Assembly: GCA_963575745.1 (NCBI GenBank)
Contig: CAUYUJ010000340.1
Coordinates: 51,153 to 115,152 of the forward strand
Length of the DNA stretch: 64,000 nt
Source: Prorocentrum cordatum
Lineage: Eukaryota; Sar; Dinophyceae; Prorocentrales; Prorocentraceae
Reading direction: 5' to 3'
Part shown: positions 1,511 through 41,829 of the stretch, in pieces
How the letters are laid out: each line of letters opens with the position of its first letter
How positions within the stretch are numbered: position 1 is the stretch's first letter
Made by a program: the position numbers and the translations under genes
The notes under the pieces: generated by a model
The model's input: the letters and a program-made list of their open reading frames with translations, nothing else
What the model was told of the DNA's origin: nothing
The model's database searches: none

Positions 1511-2112
1511 CGGTTTTTTTGCGCCTTGCGGTCCGACCACGGGGCCCTACAAGGGCGGTCGGGTTGGTGCAGCCATCCCCTGTGGGCTGGATGTACCAGG
1601 TTTTTGCTGGCTTTGCGGTGGGGTCCTCCAGCACATGCAAGCAGCGGTGCTCCCCGCGGCCACCAGGCGTAAGTGGCACTACCGAGCGTGTGAGACGCTA
1701 TCTATAACAGACGCAATCTGTGAGATTGCGATAATTAGCTTCGAGGCGGCCGTTAACTCACAGACCGTCACGGTTGACTCCCTATCGAGGCCAAACGCCT
1801 CCTCGGCAATCACGTGACACTGTATAGCATTTCGATGTTCTACAAAAGCCTGCAGCCACCAGCCTCCCCCAGCCCCAATCTCCGAGGTGCCTCCATCGAA
1901 GTAACCTCTCAATCCTAAAACTTTCGAAGTATACAAAGGGGCAAGATACTCGTTTCTCTTCGATGTGCGTGGGCAAGCTCTGCAGGCCCACGTGAGTTCA
2001 TCAGCATAACTGTTACCCTCCCTATAAAGATGTTTGATCGGGTCAGCCCCCGCACACGCAGTTCTCAAGCAGGTGTCCGTTACAGCATCAAGAGTGTTTT
2101 GTGCCGCCTCCA
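1511..2112 (-). mobile_element. LINE fragment D, 5'-truncated, inserted in H
   Basis: The 3' end of a minus-strand LINE begins directly after the H target word ACCGTCAACC (1501-1510), with a tail containing CCGCAA-type units in the sense direction. The copy runs about 600 bases and stops abruptly at about 2112, where satellite sequence ('agctctgtag') resumes. Severe 5' truncation with an intact 3' end is the usual product of target-primed reverse transcription. No target duplication could be defined at the truncated end. Confidence 0.8.
1679..2108 (-). pseudogene. LINE ORF2 C-terminal RNase H fragment (copy D)
   Basis: This reading frame holds only the end of the ORF2 polyprotein. In order it shows REGNSYADELTW (the fourth catalytic Asp region of RNase H), then RGYFDGGTSE...GGGWWLQ (the first Asp strand), then VTVCELTAASKL (the catalytic Glu helix), and then the stop. 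This is the same permuted order as in LINE C. The upstream GDS segment is missing because of 5' truncation at about 2108; translation beyond that point is satellite. It is a dead fragment with no start codon of its own. Confidence 0.75.
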
Positions 2113-2590
2113 AGCTCTGTAGCGAGTTAAGCACAGAAAACCGACAGCACCTGTCAAGATGACTCGAAGAATACAAATAGTTTTGCAGACCTAGCTCGAG
2201 TAGCAGACCGAGTTCACACCTCTTGGATGCAACAGACGAACGCGCCTGATGATTTTGAATCAGTTCCTGTGAGCACAAGCTCTCTAGCTCTCTTAAATCT
2301 CGAGTTAAGTACAGAAAACCGTCAACGAGTGTCAAGATGACTCGAAACGGCCGGTCCCGCCGCGACGCTTTTTGGCAGTAATAGGTACCCGATCGAGCTG
2401 AGATTAAGACGGCGAGCGGGAATAAGATCGAATACGGTCAAAAAAAATACTAGAGCTCAAACGAATTGAGGAATTTCGAGAACAAAATTTTCAACCGAGC
2501 AAAAAGTCACCAAAAGGTCCGTCGAGATTTTTCTTGCCAACTAGCTCTCCAGTGCCCCGGAACTGGCGCAGGCGGTGAACCGTCAACCTG
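2113..2590 (+). repeat. Satellite remnant, M2 module and H half-site
   Basis: About 230 bases of 178 bp satellite, then an M2 copy, then the left half of H (GGCGGTGAACCGTCAACCTGG, about 2571-2591 in two parts) where a small LINE fragment is attached. No gene seen. Confidence 0.75.
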
Positions 2591-2740
2591 GTTTTGCGGT
2601 TTTGCGGTTTTGCGGGCAGCGAAGGCTCCGTCGAAGCCTGCCCGAGCCAAACGCCCAGCAGGGCGCCTCGAGCTCTCTGCGAGCTCTCAGCACGCACTCG
2701 GCCGCCCCAATGAGGCGCTCCAGCGCCGTCAGTTCGGCAT
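2591..2740 (-). mobile_element. LINE fragment F, ~150 bp 3' end only
   Basis: Starts right after the H word CAACCTGG with three tandem TTTTGCGG units (CCGCAAAA in the sense direction). On the minus strand one frame reads VTDAELTALERLIGAAECVL, which matches the last RNase H helix (catalytic Glu) of the larger copies: VTDAELSAIEHII in LINE B and VTCCELAACAALT in LINE C. It ends near 2740, where the module sequence 'gtacgagtgctcagaatcg' resumes. Compared with unfilled H copies, about 32 bases of target (right H half) are missing at the 5' junction. A very short 5'-truncated insertion. Confidence 0.75.
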
Positions 2741-3230
2741 CAGTGACGCGCGCGTACGAGTGCTCAGAATCGAAGCAGAGAGCTTCGCAGAAGGTTCCCT
2801 TAGAATCTTTATTTTTGTATTTTTTGATGTCAATATGCGGTCGGTTCCCGGAAGTAAACCGATTGTAGCTGAGCTGATCTCAGAACAAAGCTTATATACA
2901 AATGCTTCGCGTAAAAATCTGCTTTCTCAAAATGAATGGGCAAATATCCTTCAAATCTCAGCACTGGGATTCGGCGGTAGACCGTCAACCAAGTAACCGC
3001 CGGGAGCCTCGTAGAGCTCTTTTCTCGCGCGGAGCTGATCGGAACTCATGAAAGAAGCTTTCTCAAGGATGAGCCAAGAAACTCGAAACAATATTTTTTT
3101 CATTTTCCCAGAGCTCGTTCCTGCAAGTCTTTTGATAGTAATACTACAGCTACAAACCTGAGAATTGCACTGATAGACGCGGCAGCAGCCACTACAGACG
3201 TGACATCGAATACTAGTTCTGCTACAGCTC
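2741..3230 (+). repeat. Spacer modules of type III and M4 with one H copy
   Basis: Continues the module that follows H in type III copies ('gtgctcagaatcgaagcagagagcttc'), then a complete H at about 2971-3003 followed by the M4 block ('agctcttttctcgcgcgg', 'tcctgcaagtcttttgatagtaata'). No coding potential. Confidence 0.7.
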
Positions 3231-5471: not shown

Positions 5472-8280
5472 GTTGGGTGTTGGGGTCAGCTACACAGGGC
5501 GCGAGCGCCCTAGCCGCGCAGAGCCCCTAGAGGCCCTCACGCCCTCTCAACCGCGTAGGGGTTGGAGGCCCGAGAATGCCAAAGATAATCTGCCGAACAC
5601 CGTGCGGCAGGCGTTCACAAGCTGTAAGCTCGCTTTCTGTAACAGCGGCCCCCAGCGGGAGCAAAGAAGCCTCCTGGAAAACTCGTCGCCAGTGGTTGCC
5701 CCCAAGAGAGACCTCCACATAGCAACCCAGGGCAGAACCTTCTACACTAACGCCACCGTCCCATCCTCCACGGATACGTCTGATACAGTGTCTCTGTTGT
5801 CGTAATATCTGAAGTCAATCCATCTTCCCGCCCTCCCCCTCCTCGCCTCCCATGTCAGCTCATCATCAACACTATTGAACTCTCGGTAAATATGCTTCCA
5901 CGGATCCGTCCCTACAGTGGCGCACCTGATGTCGTAATCCTCTGCAAGTTGGTTCATATCATTCTGGAGACCGCGCACTCTCCTGCGGCACAAGCGATCG
6001 CGGCATTCCCAGATCCCTCGGGCCCAGGTCACCACACACAGACTATCTCCAGTCATTGCAACCGATATTGAACCGTCCGGGCCTTCCTGCCAGACAGCTT
6101 CGCTGTTGCATCCGTGGGCAATCCTACGAGCGAGCCTCTCAGAGTCCTCAGGCGAGTCCCACACATCCACAGGACAAGGAGCACGGGGCGGTTTCTTAAA
6201 GATGGGCTCCGATCGAGGCTGTATGTTTGTCATGCATGCAAACACATTCCACCAGTCCGTAGCATTCCACTTAATGCAGAACCAGCGCAAATTACCACTC
6301 GCTGCCAGCATGAGACAATGCCAGCTATCAGTACTTGCGTGAGCTCTCCCTCCCGCTCTCCTCATACCTTCCCTCCTCCTGGCACCCGTAAACATGGATA
6401 CAAGTGTGTCCCTCCGTTGTGTCCATTCCCCCGCACCGTGTAACATAGTCTGCAGCGTCTGGCGCCACGCTCGTGCTCCACGCACGTCCGAGGAGGCAAA
6501 CGCCCTGTCATGAAACTGGGCAACCTCCAGCGCAAACTCGGAGTTGGCTCTGACCACCTTCTCTAAAAGACTGCAATAGCCCGCCTGCAAGACTAGCTCG
6601 TATGATTTCGGTGTGGTTCTGTCCCTGAACTCCTCCCACGCCCCCTCCTCCCTCTTGTGCAGTCCCCGCATACCGTTGAGACACCTCCCCTCCCATACCT
6701 TTATCCTCTCCAGCAGTCGTAAGTTGCACGGCCAGCCTATACATCCGCGGTACACCACTGACTGCACACGAGCGGCATACCTGCGAAACTTCTCTTTGAG
6801 TGAGACCGCTCTTGAGCGATAACACCGTATGTCAGCAAAGTAGGCCTTCCCCCCTTTCTCCAGCCGATGATACAAACCGTGGTAACCTTTTAATTCCAAA
6901 GTGAGCTTCACCCCCAGGACCTCCACCTCCACCCTCCTTGGCATTACGACAGTTGAGCGCATATGATCGGGGAGCTCCTCATCCCCAAAAATCGCACAGA
7001 TGGCTGGCGAAAGCGGGCAGAGCAGCGGCAGGTCGCCGCAAGTGTATGTCTGACCAAAAAGCACATAAGCCAGCGAATCCTCCTTCCAATCCATCCCCAC
7101 CCGTCTCAGTGTCACCGCCATCATACCGATCATCTGCTGTAACTGAAGTTGCGACGCAGCACAGAGCGTAACATTGTCCGCCCACAAGAAGTGGTGTGCA
7201 AGAGCACCGTCCGTCCCCTCCCCTTCCAGTCGGACTCCATATCCTAAGGTATCCCAGGTCCGAATCACGGATCCCCAGATGGCCTCCAAGACGATATTGA
7301 AAAGTATGGGCCCTTCCTTTCCTCCCGTACGGACCGATTTGTTGTATCTCACCTCACCGCCGCACACATTCTGAAACTCAAAGGTCGCAATGTTATCCAG
7401 CATGAGCTCCACAATGGCTCTGATGAGGCAAACAGGGTATTTAAGATGCAGCATGGCCTTGATAATGGTGTGTACTGTAACATTATCGAACGCCTTGTGA
7501 ATGTCCAAGGCTCCCACGTGCATTGACTCTGCCTTCCCCCACACATTAGCATGTCTAGTGAGATGTGATAGAGGTGCCGTGACATGTGTGACCTTCTGGT
7601 CCTTCTCAAACCCGTATGTGCACAACCGTCGGTTCACAGGAAACGCATCAATGAACTGCAACACGCATGCCATGCACAATTTACTCCTCACACTGATCAA
7701 GCATATCCCTCTGGTGTTGGAGAGACGCGTAGCATCTCGCATATTCGGCACAAGTTGGATACTCAGTTGCCTCCACGTCTCAGGGCTAGAGGAGCCCTGC
7801 TCGAAAATACTCTGGAAAGCACGCCGCACGAACTGTAAGCTCCGCCATGGCAACTCACGGATCACCTCAGCAACGATTCCATCGCTACCGGGTGCTGTGC
7901 CAGGCTTCAAAGACGCACGAGCCTGCATGAGCATACCCATTGTAATGACCCGTCCCTCCACCCCACAGCCATTGTGTTTGAGCTCCTGAAAGGCCTCCAA
8001 AGTCCGTTTCTCCTCCTCCGAGTTCGTGTAAGACTCCGTCGCATACCTAGTGATCTCCGTACTCCACCTAGTCCTGTCCATTGTCAGCACACCCTCACAC
8101 TCCAGCTCCTTAAGGATACAACGAGAGGTCTTACTGGATCCCTTGTGGTCCTGCAGGAGTTGGTTCCTTCTGCGTTGCCTCCTGAGAGTCTTCCTCCTAC
8201 GCAGTAGTTGTTTACGAGTATTCCCAAGGGCCCCATGCCTGATGGCAGACTCCACCTCCATGAGCTCCCTGGGCCTCTGA
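5472..8280 (-). pseudogene. LINE A ORF2: reverse transcriptase and RNase H part
   Basis: An uninterrupted 839-codon frame (8261 to 5742) encodes the RT and most of the RNase H. The template/fingers word GTAPGSDGI is at residues 121-129, GFEKDQK is near 217, motif A LDIHKAFDNV at 252-261, motif B RTGGKEGPILF at 311-321, and motif C FLWADNV at 358-364. RNase H pieces are TGDSLCVV at 737-744 and REFNSVDDELTW at 793-804. After the frame ends at 5742 the protein continues in another frame, shifted near 5757: WDGGVSVEG... and then VTESELTACERL, the first-Asp and Glu segments. The element is therefore broken here by a frameshift, and again near 8280 at the join with the endonuclease. The RT carries WADN and EG in place of YADD and QG, as in LINEs B and C. 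It copies element RNA at a nicked target by family knowledge. Confidence 0.8.
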
Positions 8281-9306
8281 ATAGGTTTGCAGTTGGGGGC
8301 CCCTTAGTGTGGTCCACAAGTTTTGCCGTCTCCAAGAGTACCCGTCCTACCTGTTGTAAGTCCGTCCCTCTCGTGTCAGATGCAAGCCCTTCAATCGACA
8401 CATCCGCAAGCACACTAAACATGTTCCGCGCCGCGTCGCCCGTCGGCTGCCAGCCAACCATTGACACAGGGCGCGGTGGTAGAGCAGGGCGCCGGAGCTC
8501 CGTGGACTTGACAGTCACCCAAGCCAGGGCATGATCACTATAGGCACTGACTTTTGCACGTATACCTGGCGATGCCGTGATGGGTTCCACAAACTGGACT
8601 TGGCATCTCATGTCCTGCTTGGCTCGTGCCTCATCCGCGCACCAACGTGTAGGGATGAGTATGTAGTCAAGGACACGCTCCACATGTGTCGAACAGTATG
8701 GTACGTGTGTGATACGTCGTGCTCCGTACGTGTTCGCCGCACAGATCCCCCAAATACTCAGAAATCTCATCAGTATGTCCCTCCTCTCTGCATGATAGTT
8801 CGCCTCCTCCCTCCTACCGTCCACCTGCATAAGTCATCCCCCCGTCATTCCAAGCAGATATGGTTCGAGTTCCGTCTGAGCATCCATCCCCACCCATGGT
8901 ATGACTCCAGCCTGTGTAGTTTGAAACATACAAACAGTGCACTTTGTCAGCACATCTAAATATTCCCCCAAGTGGTCGACATCACGCATCACGCATGGTA
9001 GGTACACTGATGTAACTAGACTCCCCTGAATTCAACACACGCATATCGTACCCCACTCCGTCGTGCCATCACATGTGGTGCCCAAGCCCTGCACCACGCA
9101 ACAGCCGCTTTGGAGCAGGAGCTATAGTGGATCTCCCATCCACATCTATTGCAACTATTTGCACTGGTATGTTCACACTCTTGCAAGCACACCACTTGAA
9201 TTGACCTGGCCGCACATGCAGCGACCAGGTTGGGCACCTGACCGTCGGATGCCTTCTGCACATTCCAGGTTGCGACGACGGTCTCAGTCGCAGCCCCGCA
9301 GCCCCG
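8281..9306 (-). pseudogene. LINE A ORF2: endonuclease domain, decayed
   Basis: Exonuclease-endonuclease-phosphatase (EEP) type nuclease that nicks target DNA in this class of element. The N-terminal part (to about 9016) shows TWNVQKASDG and VVCLQE in the frame that continues directly from ORF1 past its stop at 9307-9309. The C-terminal part (8830 to about 8290) is in a different frame and shows RVLDYIL and YSDHALAWVTV, the catalytic Asp-His end of the fold. Frame changes and stops between the two parts make it non-functional as read. There is no AUG between the ORF1 stop and the WNV motif. Confidence 0.7.
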
Positions 9307-11379: not shown

Positions 11380-11934
11380 TCAAAGTATGTGTAGAACCCG
11401 TGGAAGAACATCAATGATATGTTCAATCGCAGACAGTTCGGCATCAGTAACTGAAGCATTGCTGTCGATAGAGAAAGCAGCACTTTACACCTCCGTCCAA
11501 ACAACATCTCTGGAGCTCGGCTTACGACACGTCCGCGAGACACGACCGACATCAATCCAGCAACCGACTCCGACACCCGCCGGCGACACTCCACCATCGA
11601 AACCACAATCGATGGCACAATAGCTGTAAAGATTCGAATACTCGTTGGGCTTCTGCCCGATACAATCCTGAAATATGTCGATGCCCTCTCGGGCAGTATG
11701 AGTGAGCACGTCCGCCCTTGTATTCCATTCCCTGAAGCAGTGTTCGATGAGGTCTCTTCCAGGAGCAAATGGGCGCATACGAAACATAAAAGACATACCA
11801 TCCAGACGATTTATGATCCTGTCAACTCTTCTCTGAAAATCTTTGCTGATAACCTGCCAGTAAGCCTGGCACCATGATACAACCAACAAACTATCACCAT
11901 GGATACTTATTGGGACTCCGAAGGCCTCAAGATC
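11380..11934 (-). pseudogene. LINE B ORF2: permuted RNase H domain
   Basis: Frames below the RT stop (11935) encode the RNase H in the same permuted order. First comes ISIHGDSLLVVSW (third Asp), then FREWNTRADVLTH (fourth Asp), then CGFDGGVSPAGVGVGCW (first Asp). In a further frame there is VTDAELSAIEHII (Glu helix), followed by the stop at 11380-11382. At least two frameshifts separate these parts (about 11920-11935 and about 11485-11500), so this copy cannot make an intact domain. All four acidic residues are still visible. Confidence 0.75.
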
Positions 11935-14223
11935 TCACTCGGCATTTTCCCATTTAGATGTGTGTACAGCAAGTCGTTTGGCAAGACGATCATTGGCAAT
12001 TTGTGATCCCTCCTCCACTCCATACTCCTGAAGCTCCTGCTGAGTTTGGATATGGACCTCCCCAGTAGCCCTTGGATGACTATTTGTTTTGGCACGGATC
12101 TGGAAACAGCCAAGCATTTCCCGAGAACAAACGTGTGCGGCGAACTGCTCGAAGGTCCCTGGAGTAGCACGGAAATCCCCCCACCACTTGGGTCCGAAGA
12201 ACTCAGACAACATGTGTGTCCAGCGTCTCTGTCCGATAGCAAGGCCCCCTCCCCGTTGGCGTTTCATCTGACTGGATTCACGAAGGTAGAAACTCACGCG
12301 CAGGAACTCTGAGGCATCCGTACGCATGCGGTCCCACATCACACCATATACACACAAGCACGCACGTACGTCACGCCAAGTCCGACCTGCATTCCTCCAC
12401 TCGTCATATGTGCCCGCCTCGATTACGTGGATAAACTGGCACATGTCTTTGGCCTGATTCCAGGAGACTCGAAGAAACCTCTGAACCAGGGAAGCGAAAC
12501 CCATCTCCTGAAACTTCATCCTGGCTTCCGCATACCTCCTCCGACTCCACGTGGCCACATCCTCATCGGGTCCCCTGGGACAGGTGAACATTTTGCAAAG
12601 ACAGAGCCCTTCGAAAAAGTGCATACGCTGAATAGAATGATTGTCGAGTGTCATACCCTCGATACCGTACATAGCAATACCCTGAACCTTCTCCTGGTAC
12701 CTCCAAAACTTATCTCTAATACTCACAGCAGAACACCTGAAATAGTTGGACATGCCATAGAAACTCTTGCGGGCCATGGATAGACTATGGTCCACATCAG
12801 GATGTGTAGGGGTATTGAACTCCAAATGGATCTCGACACCGAGCACATTCATAAAGGAAACTCTTCTGAAGCGCAGGACCTCAGATGTGGTAACTATGAG
12901 GTCCTCCTCTGGTGAGATAATCCCATCAGCATTACAACGAGGTGTCAGGCCACATGTCATGAAGAGCAATGATGACGCCTTCCACGCCATGCCAAAAGAA
13001 GCAAGTGGTAATGTTAGATCGTGAATCATACTCCTGAGGTCATCGGCCGAGCCGGCTACGAGATAGACGTTGTCAGCCCAGAGGAAGTGACTGATGAGTA
13101 TCTCCTTACGGATGGACCCGTAGAGTCCCTCGACACGGTAGCCCAATCTTTTTACGTCCCAAGATCTGAAGACCTCGGCCCACATCGCCACGACAATCAG
13201 GTTGAACACCAGGGGCCCCTCGGGACCCCCCGCACGTATACACCTATCCCAATGGAGCCCAGGGATATCCATCCCTTCCACGATCACAGTGCCTATAGTA
13301 CCACATAAAGGGGCCAAAAGTGCGTATTGAAGATATGGAGGTTCATGTGCATGTTGTAAACCTCTTCTCACATTAGCTAGACTACAGTGATCGAACGCCT
13401 GTTTGATATCCGCATTCACGAAGTACACACTCTCATTCTTCCCCCACGTATCCCCGTGTTGAGCCAACGTTTTTAGACTGCTAGTAATCTCCCAAGTCTT
13501 ACGTGCCTCCTGGAACCCATAGATGCCCAAATTATGGGATAACCCAGAACGTTGAACGAAGTTTTCAGTAAGACTAACCACACATGCCAAGTACCAGCGG
13601 GAAATCGCATTTTGCATAACCAGGTAGCGACCCTCAGACAACGCAGTAAGGCCAGGCACCTTAGGCATGAACGATATGAGCACCTCCCTCCACCCACCAG
13701 GATAGTCCTGAGAGCACGTGAAGACACGATCGAAGAGTAACTGAATGGAACGAAGAGCGGACCAGGGGAGAGCACGAAGTGATTCCGTTGGCACACGGCC
13801 GGGCCCTGTCGCCCGCAACGTCTTCAGGCGACTTCGCGCCCTGCAAAGAGTAGCCATGCTGATGTACTCCGTACACCGACCGTCCTTGAAACTGGACACG
13901 GCCTCCTTCCTCAATTCCTCCAACATCTTCATGCTCTCCTCCCTCACCTCCTCCGACGAATACTTTGTAATAGAATAATCATGAATCTCCCGCCTCCACT
14001 CCCCCCTGTCCTCCGTCACCATCCCGTTAATGACAAGGTGCTTGATACGGCCTCGCGCCTTGCGCCTCGAAATGGGACTGTCCCATTCGGCGAGCGCACG
14101 TCGGTAAGCCCTGCGATAACGATTGCACACCATTCTGAGCTCTCTGCGCTCCTTCTCCGATAAAGGTGGCACAGCACGGCGTAGCCTCTCAAGGCCACGC
14201 TGTACCCCATTTCGTCGCCCCAT
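11935..14223 (-). CDS. LINE B ORF2: reverse transcriptase frame (762 codons)
   Basis: Long open frame covering the RT of LINE B. Residues 1-80 are a basic linker (RRELRMVCNRYRRAYRRAL). TGPGRVPTESL at about 139-149 matches the KAPGPD word of LINE C in weakened form. IYGFQEARKT is at about 234-243, motif A ADIKQAFDH at 271-279, motif B RAGGPEGPLVF at 330-340, and motif C FLWADNVYLV at 380-389. The two changes shared with A and C (EG for QG, DN for DD) are present. The frame ends at 11935, just before the RNase H GDS motif, through a frameshift. It lacks an attached complete endonuclease, so the element as a whole is probably dead even though this domain is open. Confidence 0.75.
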   Translation of the reverse strand: MGRRNGVQRGLERLRRAVPPLSEKERRELRMVCNRYRRAYRRALAEWDSPISRRKARGRIKHLVINGMVTEDRGEWRREIHDYSITKYSSEEVREESMKMLEELRKEAVSSFKDGRCTEYISMATLCRARSRLKTLRATGPGRVPTESLRALPWSALRSIQLLFDRVFTCSQDYPGGWREVLISFMPKVPGLTALSEGRYLVMQNAISRWYLACVVSLTENFVQRSGLSHNLGIYGFQEARKTWEITSSLKTLAQHGDTWGKNESVYFVNADIKQAFDHCSLANVRRGLQHAHEPPYLQYALLAPLCGTIGTVIVEGMDIPGLHWDRCIRAGGPEGPLVFNLIVVAMWAEVFRSWDVKRLGYRVEGLYGSIRKEILISHFLWADNVYLVAGSADDLRSMIHDLTLPLASFGMAWKASSLLFMTCGLTPRCNADGIISPEEDLIVTTSEVLRFRRVSFMNVLGVEIHLEFNTPTHPDVDHSLSMARKSFYGMSNYFRCSAVSIRDKFWRYQEKVQGIAMYGIEGMTLDNHSIQRMHFFEGLCLCKMFTCPRGPDEDVATWSRRRYAEARMKFQEMGFASLVQRFLRVSWNQAKDMCQFIHVIEAGTYDEWRNAGRTWRDVRACLCVYGVMWDRMRTDASEFLRVSFYLRESSQMKRQRGGGLAIGQRRWTHMLSEFFGPKWWGDFRATPGTFEQFAAHVCSREMLGCFQIRAKTNSHPRATGEVHIQTQQELQEYGVEEGSQIANDRLAKRLAVHTSKWENAE

Positions 14224-14246
14224 ATGCTTCCCAGGTATGGAGTCTC

Positions 14247-14903
14247 TCAGCTCAGGCGGGCGAGTAAACCTAAGAAGTTACTGCGAAGCCGTTCTCTGCA
14301 ATCCCTCCGTTCCCGTTGAGCACCTCCTTCATTAATAATCCTCCTCATCCCCTTCGTAGCTCCACCCACCGCCTCGTACTCCTCCCCCGTACGTGCACAT
14401 GTGACACGGGCATGAGGCGGCAACTCAACGTTGGCATCCGTGAGAAAGACAAAGCTGGCCTTGCACCATCTGCCATTCAGAGAACGCACGACACTCTCGA
14501 GTTGCTCGAACACGGATATCTGGATATCCTCACAATCAGGAACACCTGGATCAGGTAGATACATACTGAAAACCACCAAAGGAGACTGCCCACTGCCGAA
14601 AACGATACCGCAGAAACGATCAAATTCGCATATACAATGTCGGATGGACGCCGCCCACTCATCACTAAAAAGAGTAGCACACCTTGAACACCTGCTGGAT
14701 CTAATACCCAAGCGTAGTTTAGTAAGTACTGCATCGAATTTACCCCCAACGAGATTTTGTGTCTCCTGCAAGCCGAAGAGCGAACCCCTGATCTTCAAAG
14801 CCCTCAGGATCTCCTTCCCACGAAAGTTTGTAGTGCCAGCCCTATTCAAGTTCCAAGATCCCACCTGGAGCCCTGAAAACGAACTGGATCTGGTCTTTTT
14901 TCG
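14247..14903 (-). pseudogene. LINE B ORF2: endonuclease N-terminal half
   Basis: In frame with ORF1 past the stop at 14904-14906, this encodes the start of the EEP nuclease. VGSWNLNRAGTTN is the N-terminal motif, LFGLQETQN carries the catalytic Glu, and FVFLTDANVELPP carries the Asp-x-Asn pair. The frame ends at 14247. Relative to LINE C about 100 residues, including the DY and SDH catalytic motifs, are missing before the RT frame starts at 14223. An internal deletion near 14265 removed the second half of the fold. No AUG precedes the WNL motif; the nearest start-like codon is a GTG. Confidence 0.75.
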
Positions 14904-22094: not shown

Positions 22095-22333
22095 GGCCGA
22101 TCCCGTCGCTATGCTTTTTGGAAATAATATCTACCCGATCGACCTGAGATTAAAATGGCCAGTGGGAATAAGATCGGATATGGTGGAAACAATACTAGAG
22201 CTCAAACGATCTGTTGAATTTCGAAAACAAAATTTTCAAACAACCAAAATTCACCAAAAGGTCCGTCGAGATTTGTCTTGCCAACTAGCCCTCCAGCGCG
22301 CCGGGACTGGGAGCCGGAGGTAAACTGTCAACC
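22095..22333 (+). repeat. M2 module and left half of a type II H
   Basis: M2 landmarks up to 'tctccagcgcgccgggactgg'. The H left half (AGCCGGAGGTAAACTGTCAA, about 22312-22331) carries two substitutions against the consensus. Confidence 0.75.
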
Positions 22334-22833
22334 AGGTTTGTTTGTTTGGACTCGCATTCCCAGCTGAGTGCAGCTGGGCGAGAACAGGCCCCGCAGGAGC
22401 ACACGGGCAGCGCTGAGCAGCGCTTCGGCTGCCGACAATTCACACTCTGTGACCGCAGCGCCATCAAGGAGCCACGCGGCCTCGGCCGCATCCCTCCAAA
22501 CGAGGGGAACGGCACTAGAAACAGCAAACTCATGCCCAGCAGGGAAGGGGCCCACGGTTCTCGCGGAAGCGATGCCTATCTCACTGGGATTGCACTGAGT
22601 ATTGATTAAGCCGATCTGAAGCCAGAAACCACATCCTGATCCTTGCTGGTCAACCCCGCCATCAAAGCCTCCCCTGATAGCGAACGGTAAGAGATAAGTT
22701 TCGAATGGATATAGATAACATCGAGTTCTATAAAATGTGCGGCCACATCTGGCCCCATGCGTCAACTCATCCGCGCGTGTATTGTCCTCCCTGAACTCAT
22801 GTCTCCATATCTCACGCCCCAAGGCAGCAGGCC
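22328..22833 (-). pseudogene. LINE ORF2 RNase H fragment (copy E)
   Basis: The frame contains WRHEFREDNTRADELTHGAR (fourth Asp region), then RGGFDGGVDQQGSGCGFWLQ (first Asp), then VTECELSAAEALLSAA (Glu helix), in the permuted order seen in the other copies. It reads through the tail into the target and stops at a TGA made by the H word (22328-22330), so its own stop may be lost. Truncated upstream of the fourth-Asp segment. Confidence 0.75.
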
Positions 22834-22838
22834 TCAGA
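22334..22838 (-). mobile_element. LINE fragment E, ~500 bp, 5'-truncated, in H
   Basis: Minus-strand LINE 3' end attached directly after CAACCAGG. The sense tail has CAAA units (CCAAACAAACAAACC). The other end is near 22838, where the H right half resumes as 'gggagcctcgtagagctctt' without TTACCGCC, so a few target bases were lost. It lies at the same target position as B, C, D and F. Confidence 0.8.
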
Positions 22839-23250
22839 TTGGGAGCCTCGTAGAGCTCTTCTCTCGCACCGAGGTGCTCAGAACATATGGCGGGAGTTTT
22901 TTCAGGCGTGAGCTGAAAAGCTCGAAACAACACGTTTTCGGTTTTCATCCAGAGTCGGTTCCTTCAAGTGTTTTGATAGTAATACTGCAGCTGCGGACCT
23001 GAGAATTTGACTGGCGGACGCGGCATAACCCAATACAGATGCGAAAAATACCGGTTTCCAAAACGAACTTTCAAATCTCTCACAATGCTCAAAGAACCGA
23101 CTTCAGGTCACCACATTGCCCCTCCGGGCCAGGTGGGTCAACTAGCTGCACCCCGCGCCGGAATTCCTCTAGCTCATCGATGCCGAATAGCTCTACGAGG
23201 TACTGGGCGCCGGCGGTAAACCGTCAACCTTTCTTACCGCCGGGAGACTC
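22839..23250 (+). repeat. M4 module, linker and type I H
   Basis: M4 ('tccttcaagtgttttgatagtaata') followed by 'gaattcctctagctcatcgatg', 'gccgaatagctctacgaggta' and a complete H at about 23210-23243. Confidence 0.75.
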
Positions 23251-25072: not shown

Positions 25073-26356
25073 TCAAACATCTGCGAAAGAGACTCGCATT
25101 CCAACATCTGCCGAAGAAACGCCTGTCCCAACTGAACCGAGAACTCGGCGCGCATCTTGCAACGTCCATTGGCTGAAATCCTCCTTCCAAAAACTTGAAT
25201 GAACATGTTCGCCCAGAGTTCCAGGCCCACCTTGCACCACAATGAGGTATTGCAGGATGCCCTCAACAACGGTATCGCGCGTTGCCCTTTGCCTGGTGAA
25301 ACCGTGAATCTCTGATATTTTCAATCTGGTACACATATAGAACACACCAAAAAGAATGTCGTGATTGAAGCTATACCCGTAACCGAGCTTCCGGCACTGA
25401 GTCTTAAAGGCAACTGGAGTACCGAACTTTCTGCCCAGACACCTGGCGAGACGAAACACGTTTTGTGACGTGAAGCTCATGCGAAGCATGTCATCTATCA
25501 AGTAACTTCGCCCGTGCACTCCAACCTCAATTACGAACTGATCAAACTGCTCCATTTTATCTGGCACCCTAACATCAGATCGATTCACTCGCGCGCAAAT
25601 TGTTGCACTGCCAGCTGAAGAGACTCGCATTCCAACCTCCGCATCTTGTTATGCTGAAGAAACTTGCCATCCAACATATGCTGAAGAAACTTGCATTCCA
25701 ACGTCTGTTGAAGCACCCCCAGAAACGTGCATTCCAACATATGCTGACGAAACATGCATGCCAACATCTTGTTCTGCTGAAGAAACTTGCAATCCAACAT
25801 CTGCTGAAGAAACTTGCATTCCAACGCCTGTAGAAGCATTCCCAGAAACGTGCATTTCAACCTCTGCTGAAGAAACATGCATGCCAACATCTTGTTCTGC
25901 TGAAGAAACTTGCAATCCAACATTTGCTGAAGAAACTTGCATTCCAACGCCTGTTGAAGCACTCCCAGAAACGTGCCTTCCAACATCTGCTGAAGAAACA
26001 TGCATGCCAACATCTGCTGAGGAAATTTGCGTTCCAACGTCTGATGAAGAAACTTGCATCGCAACATCTGCTGAAGCACTCCCAGAAACTTGCATTCCAA
26101 CATCTACTGAAGAAACCTGCATGCCAACATCTGCAGTAGAAACGTGCATTCCAACAGCTGCCGAAGAAACTGGCGCCCCAACATTTTGCCGAGGGGAAGA
26201 CTTTGCCAAGCTTGCATGGGGATCTTCCGTCCTGGAACCACTCGTTTCATGTTCCTCCTTTCCACAAATGGCATCAAAAAGATAAATCGTACTACCTGCA
26301 GAGAAGCCCGAATGCGCGAGACCACATGAAGCAAATGCCGCCTCCTCCTCCTCCAT
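25073..26356 (-). pseudogene. Repeat protein of the 2.35 kb element, split by one nonsense codon
   Basis: From the first in-frame ATG (26354-26356) the frame encodes an acidic start (MEEEEAAF), then from about 26182 a long array of 9-residue units of the form VGMQVSSAD, with 11- and 12-residue variants (VGLQVSSAEQD, VGMQVSGSASTG). A TAA at 25649-25651 interrupts it. The equivalent unit elsewhere reads SSAEQD (GAA), so a single G-to-T change explains the stop. Beyond the stop the same frame runs on to 25073 with a non-repetitive, domain-like stretch (FVIEVGVHGRSYLIDDM, then FRLARCLGRKFGTPV, then YSFNHDILFGVFYMC), and then two more repeat units. An open stretch without ATG extends upstream to 26650. 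I do not recognise the family and assign no function. A plus-strand frame over the same repeat is a mirror. Confidence 0.6.
25620..26182 (-). repeat. 27 bp-based coding minisatellite
   Basis: About 18 units related to 'gaagaaacttgcattccaac' on the plus strand, in units of 27, 33 and 36 bases, so the coding frame is always kept. Length changes are always multiples of three, which suggests past selection on the protein. Confidence 0.8.
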
Positions 26357-26833
26357 ATCGTCAAAAACAGCAGCTAAGCTACCCTCGGAAGTAGAATCGA
26401 GATATCGAAAATATCGGGGAGCATCTATCTTCTGCACACAAACGCCCTGCCGCAACTCTGATCCATTTTCAATACCTCGGAGCCAACAACTCTGAATTCC
26501 AATGCGCCAAACAATGAGATCACGCGCGGCGTCTCCCTGGCTCGCTCCAATTCGGCGACTCTCTTTTGGAGCGTCCGCACTGTTGAGCAAAGCCAATTGA
26601 CAACATCTGAAGAAACGACCATATGAGAACAAAGATATACACAAATTCAAACCCGTAGCAAATTATCAGCAGCGGCAAGTACCCGAAGTTATTGGACGGC
26701 CCGCACACAAGATGCACAGTGGAGTACGATACGTGTGCATGCACAGAAACCTGTCCGCACAATGCGGCTCGAGGAGGCCCCCGACGGGCCAGGTCGCCGC
26801 TGAGCTCCCCGAGGAGGGACAGCAGCAACCTGG

Positions 26834-35028: not shown

Positions 35029-35505
35029 GAGAAGAGGAAGGAAAAAAAAAAGACATAACTGGGATCCGGCGGTAAACCGTCAACCAGATAACCGCCGGGA
35101 GCCTCGCACAGCTCTTTTCTCGCGCGGCGATGCTCGAAACACAAGGAAAGAACCTTCCTCAAGCGTGAAGACAAAAGCTCGAACAACAAAAAAAATCCGG
35201 TTTTCATCCAACGTTCCCTCAAGTGTGTTGATAGTAACATTGCATCCACGGACCTGAGAATTGGACTGGCAGGCGCGGCATAACCCACTACACGTGAGAA
35301 AAGAAAGGTTCCTCAAAATGAATTGTCAAATATCTTTCAAATCTCAGCAAAACCAACCGAAGTCACAACATTGTCTCTTAAGGTCGGATCTGCCAACTAG
35401 CTCCACCCTGCGCCCGAATTCCTCTTATTATGTTCAAAGAATTGAGAACGAATAGTTTATCAGCCCGAGCGATGATAGCAGACTGGGCGCCGGCGGTAAA
35501 CCGTC
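35029..35505 (+). repeat. Return to + orientation: type II H, M4 and type I H left half
   Basis: Purine-rich filler of about 30 bases, then H type II (35063), M4, a short satellite stub, and the left half of the H in which LINE C is inserted. Confidence 0.75.
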
Positions 35506-35593
35506 AACCTTGGTTTTGCGGTTTGCGGTTTGCGGTCCGCCACTAGAATCCGAATCCGAATCGGCGGAGCAGTGCAACTGAGCCCCCACCATC

Positions 35594-38500
35594 TTAGGTA
35601 GGTCGTAGCAGAGCGCACGCCACCTTAGCAGCAGCTCTCGTCAGGGCAGCGCAGGCAGCTAGTTCACAGCAGGTTACCGTGCTACCAGGAGGCAAGCTCA
35701 TCGCCTCCTCGGCCACATCGTGCCAATGGAAGCTGTGCGAGCTGGTGCAGGAGGAAGAGGAGGAGGAGGAGGAGGAGGAGGAGATGGGAAAATCAACCTG
35801 CACGCTGGAACCCCTACCTACAACGCCAATCTGAAGCCACCACCCACCTCCACATCCTTCATTACTGACACCCCCATCGAATGCACCACGGAGAGCAGTC
35901 TTACGAGTACTGAGGAACTTATCATATGCAAACCAGCGAGTAATAGTTTGGCCACCTCTGGCCTCCCACGACAATTTATCCGCACGCTCATTACCCTCAC
36001 GAAAGAAATGCTTATACAGATTCTGTCCCGATGCAGGTGAGGTCAGTCCCCATCCAGACAGCATCGATACCGTATTTTGTAGTGTTCCCACCAGTCGTAC
36101 ATACTGCTTGTTGCGAATCTGCCACTCACCACACATCCAGTTTACAACAGTCTTACTATCTCCCAAGATCTCCATCCCAAGACGCTCAATATTCTCACAC
36201 CTCCACTCCGTTTCATTCTCAAAATTTGCGGCAATACGTTTGCTCATCCTCTCATTCATCTCACTCTCCTCCTCCTCCTCTGCCTTCACATGTCTCACAC
36301 CAGGCGGCCTGGGTAGAACAAACAAGTCGAACAAGTGTTGCATACCAATCACAGTCAGCAAATGCTTGCAGTATTTCTCACGGGACCCAGCGGAACTGTC
36401 GAATGAGAGGTACCACTCACAACCAAAGAGATCGCACAAGCACCAGTCCCACGCAGTATGTCCACGGGGGCGGCCGCCTATGTTCATGCGTGTCAGCTGC
36501 TTCCTATCTTTTACAGGCATTGCTAGAATACATGTGTCACGATGTTCCGTCCACTTCCCCCTTCCATGTAACATGGCCAGCCTAGATATCATCCATTCAC
36601 GTGACATGTCCGACTCCTCAGGTATGGCAGGCTGATCATCTGGTGTACGCCGGCGACAGCCACTCGACATCTGGGATATCTGAGATACATGATATGTTTG
36701 AGAAGTCGCCGCCGCCGCCATCGCCCGAGTTTTCCTCTGACGCCGATTTGGTACCGTCTCTCCCTCCTCCTCCTCTGTGTGTGTTGTGTATCTCCTCATA
36801 CGAATACTTGCAGCAACTGAGACATCCTTAGCCCAATCCCAACAACGAAATATCCATATCTGCACCGCACTTCGGAATCCAAGTCCAGCAAAACTCTGTC
36901 GTCCCGCTTTGTATCGCCTACGTTGAAACTCAGACCAGCCTTCAGTTCTCCGCTTGCGTATACCTGACATTATAGCTAGACATCTGCCTTCAAAATAGTG
37001 AACAGCAGCAATGGTAGAATAGTCGGGCGTTCTGCCCTCACAGTTGAATAATAATGCAGCAATCACTTTAGCTTGATAGCGAGTAAATCTTTCAGCCAAG
37101 TCAATCCCAGAACAGCGGTAATACGCGATTTCCCCAAAGAACATCCTCTGGGCTTTCTGGAGCATGGCCTCTGAGTCCGAGTGGTCCTTCCAGGTCTCCT
37201 CCAGAGTGGCTCCCAGGATCTCAAACGCTTGAACACGCGGTAGGACCACTTCTCGGGTCCCAAGAGCGGCGTCACTAGACGGCACCAGCACACGGATATC
37301 CTGCTCAGGGGACGGCGGGATGCCAGGCGGCGCACCAAAGTAAATATACATCAAAGATTTCGGCTTCCAGGTCATTCCTGCATTCATCAGGGGGATACTC
37401 ATGTCACGCACCATCAACTCAAGGTCAGTGCGGGTCTTCGCATACAACAAAAGATTATCTGCCCAGAAACTGTGGGTCATACGCTCACCATTGAACATGC
37501 GCTCATCATTTTCCAATTTGATGCCGTACTGCGTTTCTTGCCTCCATCTGTCGATAACATCTCTCCAGAGTACAATAGAAACTGCCAGAAAAATCATAGG
37601 TCCCTCTACTCCTCCCGTTCGAATAGATTTGTCCCAATAGACCGCTGACGATGCCTCGATGCCCTCGAAGCTGGCCACGCACTGATTATCCATCATGGGT
37701 TCAATCAACGCCACAATGAGATCAGCAGGTATGTCAAGAGCACGAAGACAGCGCATGGCGAGGCACGGAGTAACATTATCGAAAGCTTGTAAGATATCAA
37801 GATTGGCAAGCCACAAACTGTCTCCTTTGCCCCAGACAGCGGAGTGCTGGCTGAGCCTCTTGGCAACGCTGGTGATTTCCGATGTTTTGCGTCCCGATCT
37901 GAATCCGTACAGGCATACATAGTGTCGGTGCTCCTCAATCCTCTTCTCAATCAACATCACAATACATGTCATGTACCATTTCATAAGACACGACTGTAGA
38001 CATAGCATACGTGTATCTGTCAAATGTTGTATGTCCATTTCTTTTGGCATGAGTGTGGCAGCTAGTTGACGCCAACTGTCGGGACAACATAACCTTCTGG
38101 AATACACACCTTGGAAGCTCACCAGAACACGTCGCACAGATGCCCACGAGAGCTGTTTCAACATCGTGACAGTCACGTTGTCGGGACCTGGGGCCTTTCC
38201 CGTGGACAGCTTCGCCCTCGCCCGCAGCAGGAGCGACATCGAGAACACCTCTGAGGATCCGCTTCCCGAACATAGACCACGCAGCGACTGAAGCTCACGC
38301 AGGGTCACCTCTCTGGCCTCGGGGTCCTCCACCTTAGACTTCATGTGCCCCAATATCTCGTCCCCCCACTCCTCGCGGTTCTGAGACTCCATCCCGTTGG
38401 CAAGGATCAACGTCTCCGTCTTGGCCCTCCTCCTCCTCCTCGTGTTCATTTCCGTCCTCCACCTCTGTACTCTTGCCTCTAGCCTCCTTCTTTCTCTCCT

Positions 38501-39772
38501 CACAATCTTTGAGCACCGTTTAGCCTCCTCTCTATCCCCCCGACGAAGAGCTTCACGTTTACTTGCCTGGGCGGCCCAGTGGATCTCGGATTTCTTTGGC
38601 ACATTATTCCTGGGATTGATATCTTTCTGGGGGGTCTCCTCGGCGGCCTTTATGAGGTCAGGTCCCAGCGTATCCAACATCTCCTGTCGATCCTCTGGGT
38701 CAGCATTTTCCTGGCACAGAGCACGGTAACGACTGCCCCGATCGTCCATGTTCTTCGCAAACTCCAGCTGTGACACCGGTTGCAAGTGGATGAATTTTCG
38801 AGCAGGCTGGGTCCGTCTCTTCGCAGACGGTGCACAAGACAAGCGAACAACTATGCAGGCGTGGTCAGACAGTGCACGCTCGTATCTGCTGCAAGGGTGC
38901 TCCGTCCAGGCGTGGCCGACTTCCGAAGGCAGCATCCAGCCAACGGTGAGCTCCTGCCTGTGTAAACGACGGCTGACACCAACATAGTCGAGCACCTTCT
39001 CCACCCCCGTACCTGATTTGAAAGTAACCCTCCTCTGCCCGAATGTGTTCTCCATCCTGATGCCCCAGAGCCCGCAGAAGTCCAGTAGGGCCCTCCTCAT
39101 CGATTGCAACCTAGACGCCCGTCGAATTTCGAAGCCCGAGACAAGCCTATGAGGTCTGGCTTTGCGTGCACCACGTTTTGTTTGAGTCATATACGGGTTG
39201 CCGTCATCCGCTCCCTCCTCCATCCCAGTATCAATCTCCGTAGACTCCCCAGCAATCCCAGACGCCTCCAGAAGCCCTGATCCAGTAACTCTAAAGCCGT
39301 TGACCTCCGAATCTGGCTCGAGTTCGACGTTAGCATCTGTCAAGAAGACCAGGTCCTGCGGCTGCTTCGGGAACTTAGACCTATGTGTGCGAAGCACTTG
39401 GGATATATCAAACAATATCTGCTCATACACATCATGCTCATACTGTTCTTCCGTAAGGGCATTGATACTCTCATGTGGCATATATGCAACAATAACCGTA
39501 ACACTAGAATAACTACAAATGACAAAACCTTTGCCACGATATGTGGCTCTGAGCGAGTCTCTCCAAGACTTAGACATAATCACCGCAGCCTTCCGACAAG
39601 TACTCCGAAAAATTGTGTAACCTCGCATGCTGAGATCACGAACTGAAAGGAACTGACACTCGCACAACCCCGCGAGTCCCACATCTAAACGACGTAGTGA
39701 ATTAATTATGTCATGGCCGTTCTCTGCACCTGCCCGACGCACATTCCATGACGCAATGGTGTCGTGGCACCT
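35594..39772 (-). CDS. LINE C ORF2: endonuclease, reverse transcriptase and permuted RNase H
   Basis: Open for 1392 codons after the ORF1 stop, in the same frame and without an AUG before the first catalytic motif. Numbering is from the GTG at 39742. EEP endonuclease: ASWNV just upstream of the GTG, Glu28 (GLCECQ), Asp136/Asn138 (FLTDANVE), LDYVGV at 251-256, LSDHAC at 291-296. RT: GKAPGPDNV at 515-523, LYGFRSGRKT at 611-620, motif A LDILQAFDNV at 648-657, motif B RTGGVEGPMIF at 708-718, motif C SFWADNLLL at 758-766. RNase H: ILGDSKTVVNW (Asp1195), REGNERADKLSW (Asp1255), RGAFDGGVSNEG (Asp1289), VTCCELAACAAL (Glu1360), with the stop 22 residues later. This order is a circular permutation of the usual Asp-Glu-Asp-Asp. 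A Ser run (about 321-331 counted within 1321-1331) interrupts the strand region before the Glu helix. No zinc knuckle seen. Confidence 0.9.
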   Translation of the reverse strand, partial: RCHDTIASWNVRRAGAENGHDIINSLRRLDVGLAGLCECQFLSVRDLSMRGYTIFRSTCRKAAVIMSKSWRDSLRATYRGKGFVICSYSSVTVIVAYMPHESINALTEEQYEHDVYEQILFDISQVLRTHRSKFPKQPQDLVFLTDANVELEPDSEVNGFRVTGSGLLEASGIAGESTEIDTGMEEGADDGNPYMTQTKRGARKARPHRLVSGFEIRRASRLQSMRRALLDFCGLWGIRMENTFGQRRVTFKSGTGVEKVLDYVGVSRRLHRQELTVGWMLPSEVGHAWTEHPCSRYERALSDHACIVVRLSCAPSAKRRTQPARKFIHLQPVSQLEFAKNMDDRGSRYRALCQENADPEDRQEMLDTLGPDLIKAAEETPQKDINPRNNVPKKSEIHWAAQASKREALRRGDREEAKRCSKIVRRERRRLEARVQRWRTEMNTRRRRRAKTETLILANGMESQNREEWGDEILGHMKSKVEDPEAREVTLRELQSLRGLCSGSGSSEVFSMSLLLRARAKLSTGKAPGPDNVTVTMLKQLSWASVRRVLVSFQGVYSRRLCCPDSWRQLAATLMPKEMDIQHLTDTRMLCLQSCLMKWYMTCIVMLIEKRIEEHRHYVCLYGFRSGRKTSEITSVAKRLSQHSAVWGKGDSLWLANLDILQAFDNVTPCLAMRCLRALDIPADLIVALIEPMMDNQCVASFEGIEASSAVYWDKSIRTGGVEGPMIFLAVSIVLWRDVIDRWRQETQYGIKLENDERMFNGERMTHSFWADNLLLYAKTRTDLELMVRDMSIPLMNAGMTWKPKSLMYIYFGAPPGIPPSPEQDIRVLVPSSDAALGTREVVLPRVQAFEILGATLEETWKDHSDSEAMLQKAQRMFFGEIAYYRCSGIDLAERFTRYQAKVIAALLFNCEGRTPDYSTIAAVHYFEGRCLAIMSGIRKRRTEGWSEFQRRRYKAGRQSFAGLGFRSAVQIWIFRCWDWAKDVSVAASIRMRRYTTHTEEEEGETVPNRRQRKTRAMAAAATSQTYHVSQISQMSSGCRRRTPDDQPAIPEESDMSREWMISRLAMLHGRGKWTEHRDTCILAMPVKDRKQLTRMNIGGRPRGHTAWDWCLCDLFGCEWYLSFDSSAGSREKYCKHLLTVIGMQHLFDLFVLPRPPGVRHVKAEEEEESEMNERMSKRIAANFENETEWRCENIERLGMEILGDSKTVVNWMCGEWQIRNKQYVRLVGTLQNTVSMLSGWGLTSPASGQNLYKHFFREGNERADKLSWEARGGQTITRWFAYDKFLSTRKTALRGAFDGGVSNEGCGGGWWLQIGVVGRGSSVQVDFPISSSSSSSSSSSCTSSHSFHWHDVAEEAMSLPPGSTVTCCELAACAALTRAAAKVACALLRPT

Positions 39773-40819
39773 CTAGCTCGTACTGGAAATCCTCGCTCGC
39801 AACTCATCAATGTTGATCCCTGGCTCAAGCTGATTCATTGCACGAGTGATCTCCCAGCCATTCTGCAGAGAGAACTTGGCCACAATCTTCCCTGGAGGTG
39901 GTAAGTGGTCACTGGAGCCCCACATGAACGTAATCGGTGGTCCCGTCTCAGCCCTGAGATTCGAATGATGCTTCTTGAAACTCTTGAACTTGGCCTGAAA
40001 GATCCCAGCGGCATCCAGATGGGGCTTCTTCCAGGGGGGGGCCTCCACGTGGACCTTGAGGGCCCTGGGAGCGTGCTGGAGTTTGTTGTCGGCGATCGCG
40101 GCAACGAGTCGACGACGAAGATCCCACAGCTGGTCACTGGTAACCCCATTCTGGAAATAGAGCCGAGCACGCGAATACCCCCACGCCTCTCTACCTGTGT
40201 TGAACCTCTTGGATTGGTTCAGGTCCAGAAACTCCTTCACACCACTGAACCATTCTCCAGCCAGGACCTCATTCAGCAGTGAATTCAACGCCTGCTGTGA
40301 TAACATCTCCTCCTGACGCTTCTCTGCATCCCTCCAGTCCGTCACCCATCCCTTGAGCTCGACGAACGATGGGGTGAAATTCTGCACTGACTGCCGAGTT
40401 TCCGCCGAGGACGCTGTCGTAGAGGTGCCTGCTCTGGGGGCCCCACCTGCAGGAGCCTGCTGGAGCTGGATTATCTGGAGCCTCTGATCCTCAACCTTCT
40501 TAGTAATAGCATCTATGTCCGTCATCGCCTGCTGTACATTTTTCTCCACCGAATCAACACGAGCATTGAGCTGGGTGCCGAGATCCGTGATGCTTCGATG
40601 TGTTGATTGGAAGCCCTCCGTCATCTTACCTCCCAGAGATGCAACAAGCGTCGTGATCTTGTCCATCCCCTTTGTCATGGCCTCCTCGAGGCCTTCAACC
40701 GTCTGAATTTTGACCCGTTTTCCCTCTGGGACCTCCTCCTCCTTGGCTCCTGGAACGGGCATATCAGTGGCGTCCATAGCGAAAACCTCGGGGACCGCAG
40801 CCGCTGATGAGGCAGCCAT
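39773..40819 (-). CDS. LINE C ORF1 (probable RNA-binding/coat-like protein)
   Basis: 348 codons from the ATG at 40817-40819 (MAASSAAAV), chosen because ORF1 of A and B also start MAA; the frame is open further upstream only through a non-AUG codon. A short acidic/basic stretch (GAKEEEVPEGKRVKIQ) precedes a coiled coil of about 80 residues (GLEEAMTKGMDKI to RLQIIQLQQ). An Ala/Thr/Ser linker follows, then the conserved block TPSFVELKGWVTDW shared by all three ORF1s, and then a C-terminal domain with ARLYF, VHVEAPPWKK and GPPITFMWG. It ends with TAG at 39773-39775, and the next codon is AGG in the ORF2 frame. By analogy with other LINEs it probably forms RNA particles; the fold was not recognised. 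Confidence 0.8.
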   Translation of the reverse strand: MAASSAAAVPEVFAMDATDMPVPGAKEEEVPEGKRVKIQTVEGLEEAMTKGMDKITTLVASLGGKMTEGFQSTHRSITDLGTQLNARVDSVEKNVQQAMTDIDAITKKVEDQRLQIIQLQQAPAGGAPRAGTSTTASSAETRQSVQNFTPSFVELKGWVTDWRDAEKRQEEMLSQQALNSLLNEVLAGEWFSGVKEFLDLNQSKRFNTGREAWGYSRARLYFQNGVTSDQLWDLRRRLVAAIADNKLQHAPRALKVHVEAPPWKKPHLDAAGIFQAKFKSFKKHHSNLRAETGPPITFMWGSSDHLPPPGKIVAKFSLQNGWEITRAMNQLEPGINIDELRARISSTS

Positions 40820-41065
40820 CTTGCCGTCTGAGATATTACAAGGGATATTCCACTTCGCACAGAACGATCGATCTTCTCGAGTACGTTTGAGATGTGCACT
40901 CAACTGATGAAAGTTATATGGGGCAACAGGATGGTGAGGTAAAGTGGGAGAGAGATCAGGTGGCCCAGATGGTATGTCGACTAGAGAATCCTCATCGTCG
41001 TGTCGAGCTCTACCAACCTGTCTGGCAAGATACTCCCACTCCCAATGTCCGAAGTTGGCTCCCCG
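40820..41065 (-). other. LINE C 5' untranslated region
   Basis: About 245 bases between the right border and the ORF1 ATG. Not similar by eye to the 5' ends of LINEs A and B. No promoter motif was identified. Confidence 0.5.
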
Positions 41066-41073
41066 AACCTTGG

Positions 41074-41829
41074 TTACCGCCGGGAGACTCGTAGAGCTTC
41101 CTAGCTCGACTTAAGTTAAGAAAACCGACAGCACCTACCAACATTCCGACTTATAGTGAATATTTGTTGACCTCTGAATGCGACACGCGGACGCGTCTGA
41201 TGTCTGCGAATCGACTCCTGTCATTACCAGCCCTGCAGCCCCCCCCAAAAGCCCGAGTTGCGTGCAGAAAACTGACAGTACCTCTCAGGATGACTCGAAC
41301 AATACAGTAGTTTTGCAGACCTAATTCGGGCAGCAGACCGAGTTCCGAGCTCTGGATTCGACAGGTAGACGCGCCTGATGTCTGCAAATCGATCCCTGTG
41401 ACCACCCGCACTGTAGCCGCCCCTCAGCGCGAGTTGAGTGAAGGAAACCGAGATCACTTCTCAAGATAACTCGACCAATACGAATAGTTTCGCGATTCTA
41501 GATCGGGCAGCAGACCGAGTTCAGAGCTCTGGATTCGACAGACATATGCGACTGATCAGTCTTAATCAGATTCTGTATGTATCAGCTCTGTACCTGTCCT
41601 ACAGCTCGAGTTAAGTACAGAAAACCGCGAGTTCATGGCAAAATGACTCGAATAATACGAATAGGTTTGCAGACCTAGCTCGACTATCAGACCGATTTCA
41701 GACCTCTGGCTTCAACAGGCGAACGCGCCTGATCATTCTACATCGATTAGCTGTGCTTATCAGCTCTATAGCTGTTCTAAAGCTCGAGTTATGTTCCGAA
41801 AACCGTCAGCGCGTATCAAGATAACTCAA
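41074..41829 (+). repeat. H right half and ~178 bp satellite block
   Basis: After the H remainder, four monomers of a subfamily typical of the second half of the window ('cgaacaatacgaatagtttcgc', 'gagctctggattcgacag'). Confidence 0.8.

Follow-up and report, generated by a model that had tools for sequence, protein, structure and literature searches.

In L1-type long interspersed nuclear elements (LINEs) from plants (Ta11) and oomycetes, open reading frame 2 (ORF2) terminates in an archaeal-like RNase H, located downstream of a CCHC motif, as described in the main text of the report on them (PMC5348765). Here, we analyse LINE C, an element located in a 64,000-nucleotide stretch of the 4.13 Gb genome of Prorocentrum cordatum (positions 51153-115152 of contig CAUYUJ010000340.1, or C340; the whole stretch is referred to as the window). 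As in the plant and oomycete elements, the RNase H of LINE C ends ORF2, but the CCHC motif sets them apart: one loose regular expression for it found no match in LINE C or in four related proteins described below (P0001-P0004). The best profile matches and the best-probability Foldseek matches are to archaeal-type RNases HI, namely, S. tokodaii ST0753 (2ehg/3aly; hereafter Sto RNase HI) and LC11 RNase H1, with which LINE C shares the GDS and REN..AD motifs and four acidic residues in register. It differs from these enzymes in that the two halves of the domain are exchanged, in a long serine-rich loop between strands β2 and β3, and in an overall identity of 20-26% in the Foldseek alignments. 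We consider it very likely that the ORF2 tail represents a natural circular permutation of an archaeal-like type I RNase H that is common to an entire clade of LINEs.

Canonical type I RNases H follow the order β1-β2-β3-αA-β4-αB..β5-αE, from which the tail of LINE C departs. ORF2 (35594..39772, reverse strand, as are all coordinates of LINE C and its copies given here) is a single open frame of 1392 amino acids (aa), counted, like all ORF2 residue numbers below, from stop to stop. The permuted domain, delimited by an AlphaFold2 model and profile alignment, extends from β4 to the end of the frame (residues 1198-1392; 35597..36181). Profile alignment places the canonical C-terminal half first (β4 with GDS, αB, αC, β5 and αE with NERAD; residues 1198-1275; 35948..36181), followed by a linker between the modelled elements αE and β1 that takes the place of the two canonical termini (35900..35947). 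The canonical N-terminal half, defined by profile alignment and a model of this half, comes second (β1 with FDGG, β2, β3 and αA with ELAAC; residues 1292-1389; 35606..35899) and includes the serine-rich β2-β3 loop (35744..35806), which is modelled with low confidence (predicted local distance difference test score, pLDDT, below 50 at model residues 159-179). From the register with Sto RNase HI, the predicted catalytic residues are D1205 of GDS (36158..36160), D1265 of NERAD (35978..35980), D1299 of FDGG (35876..35878) and E1370 of CCELAAC (35663..35665). In the 1392-aa frame, we confirm the order in which an earlier note had read the blocks from the letters of LINE C (GDS, NxxAD and DGG, each with an Asp, then ELxA with the Glu); its residue numbers are all 10 lower than in the stop-to-stop count. 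The same note had the protein ending just past the Glu helix, and ORF2 indeed terminates 22 residues beyond the Glu; the approximately 112 nt that follow the stop codon are too short to encode the remaining part of an RNase H.

Profile comparison was performed with five proteins, from the reverse transcriptase (RT) to the end, as the natural-order query and with alternative alignments requested. The first alignment placed positions 717-802 onto residues 68-141 of Sto RNase HI (P 1.9e-8), and a second, non-overlapping one placed positions 814-906 onto residues 1-67; at the default threshold, the latter splits into 815-838 on 2-27 and 882-904 on 43-65. Jointly, the two alignments span Sto RNase HI once, with the halves exchanged, and pair D726 with D76, D786 with D125, D820 with D7 and E891 with E52. 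We take D7, E52, D76 and D125 to be the catalytic residues of Sto RNase HI. With the second-half columns shuffled 200 times, an invariant Asp fell on D7 once and an invariant Glu on E52 four times, and the two never coincided. Over the final 111 positions of the alignment of five ORF2 proteins, Asp or Glu is invariant in two columns only, those of the DGG Asp and of the Glu in the terminal helix. The remaining alternative alignments are not significant (P of at least 0.59 with two larger reference sets and at least 0.46 with a third), so that ORF2 gave no further significant RNase H signal. Circular permutation, as initially proposed, is the reading that fits best, with two complementary RNase H pieces in exchanged positions and their acids in register.

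The AlphaFold2 model of the tail is a confident single domain (predicted template modelling score, pTM, 0.77; pLDDT of at least 90 in 95 of 228 residues) with the element order β4-αB-αC-β5-αE-β1-β2-β3-αA. This order agrees with the split alignment in that the new termini lie between αA and β4 (GDS), where the earlier note had located them. In the Foldseek search with the whole model, Sto RNase HI (3aly) was matched with probability 0.96 over 73 columns at 2.1 Å. In the VIA-align search with the half model, RNases H, or the corresponding parts of RTs, make up 28 of the 50 matches listed; many of the RNase H chains are aligned from their first residues to approximately residue 62, including four chains of E. 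coli RNase HI that end at residue 62 and superimpose at 1.9-2.2 Å over 58-60 residues. The structure prediction that had been suggested as a check thus returned one domain in permuted order, but with low structural match scores. A monomer prediction would be compatible also with two ORF2 molecules complementing each other by a domain swap, with no permutation within a single domain; given that the monomer model by itself forms one domain, we consider such an arrangement very improbable. Overall, the tail is predicted to fold, as modelled, into a single domain that carries the usual acids (Asp-Glu-Asp-Asp).

The second check suggested at the outset was to swap the halves back into canonical order. 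We fetched 20 canonical RNase H pieces, one of which had no frame, while another was misframed and was left out of the comparison. Against canonical RNases H from the same genome together with Sto RNase HI, the hhalign score is 74.3 for the swapped and 65.0 for the natural order, and P changes from 9.1e-10 (natural order, with the GDS half alone aligned) to 2.4e-11 (swapped, with more of the profile aligned). With the second half shuffled, the swapped score has a mean of 66.0 (standard deviation 0.9, maximum 71.0), and none of the 120 shuffles reaches 74.3. The addition of some bacterial RNases HI to the reference likewise gives an increase, from 48.7 in natural to 56.2 in swapped order. The expected gain was therefore obtained with two of the four reference sets, but not with the other two, in which the scores are 54.2 (natural) and 53.9 (swapped) against six canonical sequences and 22.7 in either order against 79 bacterial RNases HI alone. 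Pfam was not helped by swapping the halves of single sequences: RVT_3 is found on the GDS half in three of the six lineages analysed, with E values of 0.03-0.05 in either order. In the profile searches against PDB sequences, RNases H account for 7 of 9 matches listed in natural order (best E 0.011) and for 7 of 13 in swapped order (best E 0.01); only the GDS..AD half aligns in both orders, so that the swap is uninformative in these searches.

The two reference sets that show no gain weigh against a permuted RNase H, as do several further results. Taken by itself, the alignment of the second half is weak (P 0.18), its support being the register of the acids and the shuffle control. Both halves have structural matches to RNases H, but the match scores are low for the model and for its halves, and the Foldseek result for the half model is weak. 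These low scores, together with a tail that yields no Pfam family over the cut-off, are what would be expected if an unrelated C-terminal domain resembled RNase H motifs by chance. We regard chance resemblance as extremely improbable, given the P value of the GDS half, the failure of all 200 shuffles to bring both other acids into register, and the predominance of RNases H among the PDB matches listed for the natural order.

Relatives of LINE C were sought with ORF2 residues 480-1392 among approximately 5.8 billion proteins (E of 0.001 or better). Five proteins were found (P0001-P0005), of which P0001-P0004, originating from ENA, carry the permuted tail at 28-41% identity, whereas P0005 lacks it; P0002 and P0003 have the same tail, and P0001 is a public protein close to copy D of the window (see below), with all four acids present. 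In the genome searches, only the best 150 candidates were scored, so that old copies are not described. For the LINE C tail in its own genome, the best 150 of 27166 candidates are all 97-100% identical, with the top score reached in 57, including the copy in the window, and 149 of the 150 are free of stop codons. The tail of P0004 led to a second abundant family, for which the best 150 matches are all 54-56% identical and 149 of 150 are again stop-free; this family has many frames of 1506 codons, the longest being 1839 codons. A third, E-like lineage is additionally present at locus L050. Extended low-complexity repeats separate the RT from the RNase H part of ORF2 in P0001 as well as in the 1506-codon family (L049). 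Searching the genome with the canonical RNase H model (PF00075) gave 2607 candidates, the best 150 of which fall in frames other than those of these LINEs, with a maximum length of 3628 codons.

An alignment of six lineages (C, P0001, P0002, P0004, the 1506-codon family and the E-like copy; 247 columns, 213 profile positions; 30-41% identity to the first row) contains 26 invariant columns, including those of all four acids; the chance that four given positions are all invariant is approximately 2e-4, as computed on the 213 positions. By both register and invariance across the six lineages, the Asp-Glu-Asp-Asp set is found at positions equivalent to those of RNase HI. Six DNA copies differ pairwise by 0.61-0.83 nonsynonymous substitutions per site (dN), with synonymous divergence (dS) saturated in 13 of 15 pairs, and for this reason the protein has probably been maintained by selection over long times. 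What the sequences support directly is the order of the blocks, their invariance, the register with the residues taken as catalytic, and the existence of families with many near-identical copies. The LINE family with the rearranged RNase H is abundant and has apparently been active recently.

The permuted block order is observed in nine lineages, that is, the six aligned ones and window copies A, B and E; copy D groups with P0001. Copy A (5530..8303) has the RT, GDS and VDDEL in one frame (5745-8303) and WDGG and ESELTAC in another (5530-5814), so that its four acids are split over two frames. In copy E (11488..14277), the RT frame is followed by a GDS/NTRAD/FDGG frame (11488-11934), and the Glu helix lies beyond one further in-frame stop. 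Copies D (1679..2437; YAD, FDGG and CELTA) and B (22331..22963; NTRAD, FDGG and CELSA) each have a single open frame that runs from upstream of the AD block through the Glu; no GDS block was seen upstream in any of three frames, up to 2420 for D and up to 23200 for B. The earlier description of a common order in these four copies holds for the blocks that are retained, but none of the four has a single frame with all four acids. At approximately 2570-2750 (reverse strand), a further, very short LINE 3' end retains the Glu helix only (RVTDAELTALERLIGAA) and has a CCGCAAAA repeat tail. The sixth of six matches to a DGG regular expression, at window position 7125, proved to be unrelated sequence.

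In the permuted domain, the original N and C termini would be joined by the linker between αE (NxxAD) and β1 (DGG), with the new termini formed between helix A (Glu) and β4 (GDS); the last helix, with the Glu, would then form the extreme C-terminus. The permuted RNase H is probably catalytic. By analogy with retroelements that bear an RNase H, the domain would bind two metal ions and, located behind the RT, would cut the RNA template of the RNA:DNA hybrid; removal of the RNA would free the first cDNA strand for second-strand synthesis. Alternatively, the permuted fold might have given up catalysis and act as a tether or nucleic-acid clamp, comparable to the native domain of elements with two RNases H, in which, according to the available text of the study, degenerate native domains retain the fold (PMC10508981). 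We find this rather unlikely, given that the native RNase H of Tat elements has a degraded catalytic centre, as far as that text describes it, whereas all four acids of the present domain belong to the 26 invariant columns.

Elements with two RNases H bear also on how the permutation might have arisen. Tat long terminal repeat (LTR) elements and retroviruses are described as carrying an additional RNase H next to a degenerate native one (PMC10508981, available text). Since two RNases H per pol gene are known in these elements, a tandem precursor is plausible; a second RNase H represents a plausible precursor state, and the available text of that study contains no occurrence of 'permut'. A tandem pair would have lost its outer halves once, before the diversification of the clade, which would be the simplest path. 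No tandem intermediate turned up, and no search of this genome was aimed at one. The same precedent, together with the appearance of the sequence, which is what tandem duplication with flanking losses would leave, could be read to mean that the tail combines a right half and, after it, a left half from two different RNases H, as functionless remnants that do not fold together. This interpretation seems to us very unlikely: the acids of both halves are invariant across six lineages, both halves are retained in families with many near-identical copies, AlphaFold2 packs them into one domain, and the missing outer halves have left no significant trace in ORF2. Circular permutation thus remains the reading that we favour. 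With somewhat less assurance, we lean towards a more comprehensive scenario, in which a clade of LINEs, multiplying now or until recently, is characterized by an active permuted RNase H, fixed a single time in an ancestor, probably through a tandem intermediate, and by an RT that has xADN in place of xADD as motif C.

The supposition that a permuted RNase H in a LINE had not been described previously is in keeping with our searches of open-licence papers, which found none in a retroelement. The main text of the report on plant and oomycete L1 elements contains neither 'permut' nor 'circular' and mentions no permutation (PMC5348765), and both terms are likewise lacking from the main text of a survey of the RNase H-like superfamily, of which this domain would be a member (PMC3985635). 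A 2025 preprint on CIRPIN describes, from predicted structures, two RNase H-like domains that are circular permutants of each other; for this pair, the part of the text available names no accession, transposon or reverse transcriptase (PMC12667903). The RNase H fold is among those studied most. Domain models take its strand order as fixed, and a functional natural permutant would show that this order is non-essential. Such a permutation, if functional, would also account for the RNase H of these elements being missed by Pfam, and suggests that annotation of retroelements that demands a canonical RNase H profile overlooks elements of this kind. Comprising several deep lineages as well as many near-identical copies, the clade provides a natural test case for the origin of permutations by tandem duplication followed by loss.

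The remainder of LINE C is consistent with its assignment to LINEs, in that its long ORF2 contains an RT and its copies have a fixed 3' end in common. The RT domain (ORF2 residues 579-804; 37361..38038) is recognized by Pfam RVT_1 (E 9.1e-12), and no other Pfam family is found in ORF2 above the cut-off; the N-terminal region resembles an endonuclease by eye, but Pfam gives no endonuclease match in LINE C. As regards the clade of the RT, the profile matches are LINE-1 ORF2 chains, with E values of 2.7e-18 to 4.7e-17, and R2-type and RT-like chains, with E values of 1.2e-9 to 3.5e-8. Motif C of the RT is WADN (residue 769) rather than YADD. All seven clade proteins checked (C, A, E and P0001-P0004) have WADN or YADN in this position; among eight loci of other LINEs (L001-L008), seven have YADD or FADD and one has no match to the motif. 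Immediately upstream of ORF2, an open frame of 445 aa (39773..41110) is the probable ORF1, for which Pfam yields no family over the cut-off.

The 3' untranslated region of LINE C, defined by comparison of copies, spans 35482..35593 and terminates in GGTTGACGGTTTACCGCCGGCGCCCAGT. The match to LINE C ends at 35474-35485 in eight of the nine other copies listed and at 35316 in the ninth; with 30 copies examined, the 3' end is common to at least 27 of the 29 listed, in some with a few mismatches. With up to three mismatches allowed, the window contains 42 occurrences of GGTTGACGGTTTACCGCCGG, including one at 35482-35509, compared to none expected from 100 shuffles. This sequence terminates LINE C as well as many dispersed repeats, and it is also located at the 3' ends of copies D and B; the dispersed repeats are perhaps short interspersed nuclear elements that have their 3' tail in common with the LINE. 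Often, GGTTGACGGTTTACCGCCGG follows CCCGGCGGTAAGAAA and precedes CGCCCAGT, so that CCGGCGGTAA...TTTACCGCCGG could pair as a hairpin. Elsewhere in the window, an open frame of 337 aa on the reverse strand (25649-26662) contains repeated VGMQVSSADVGMHVSS-like units.
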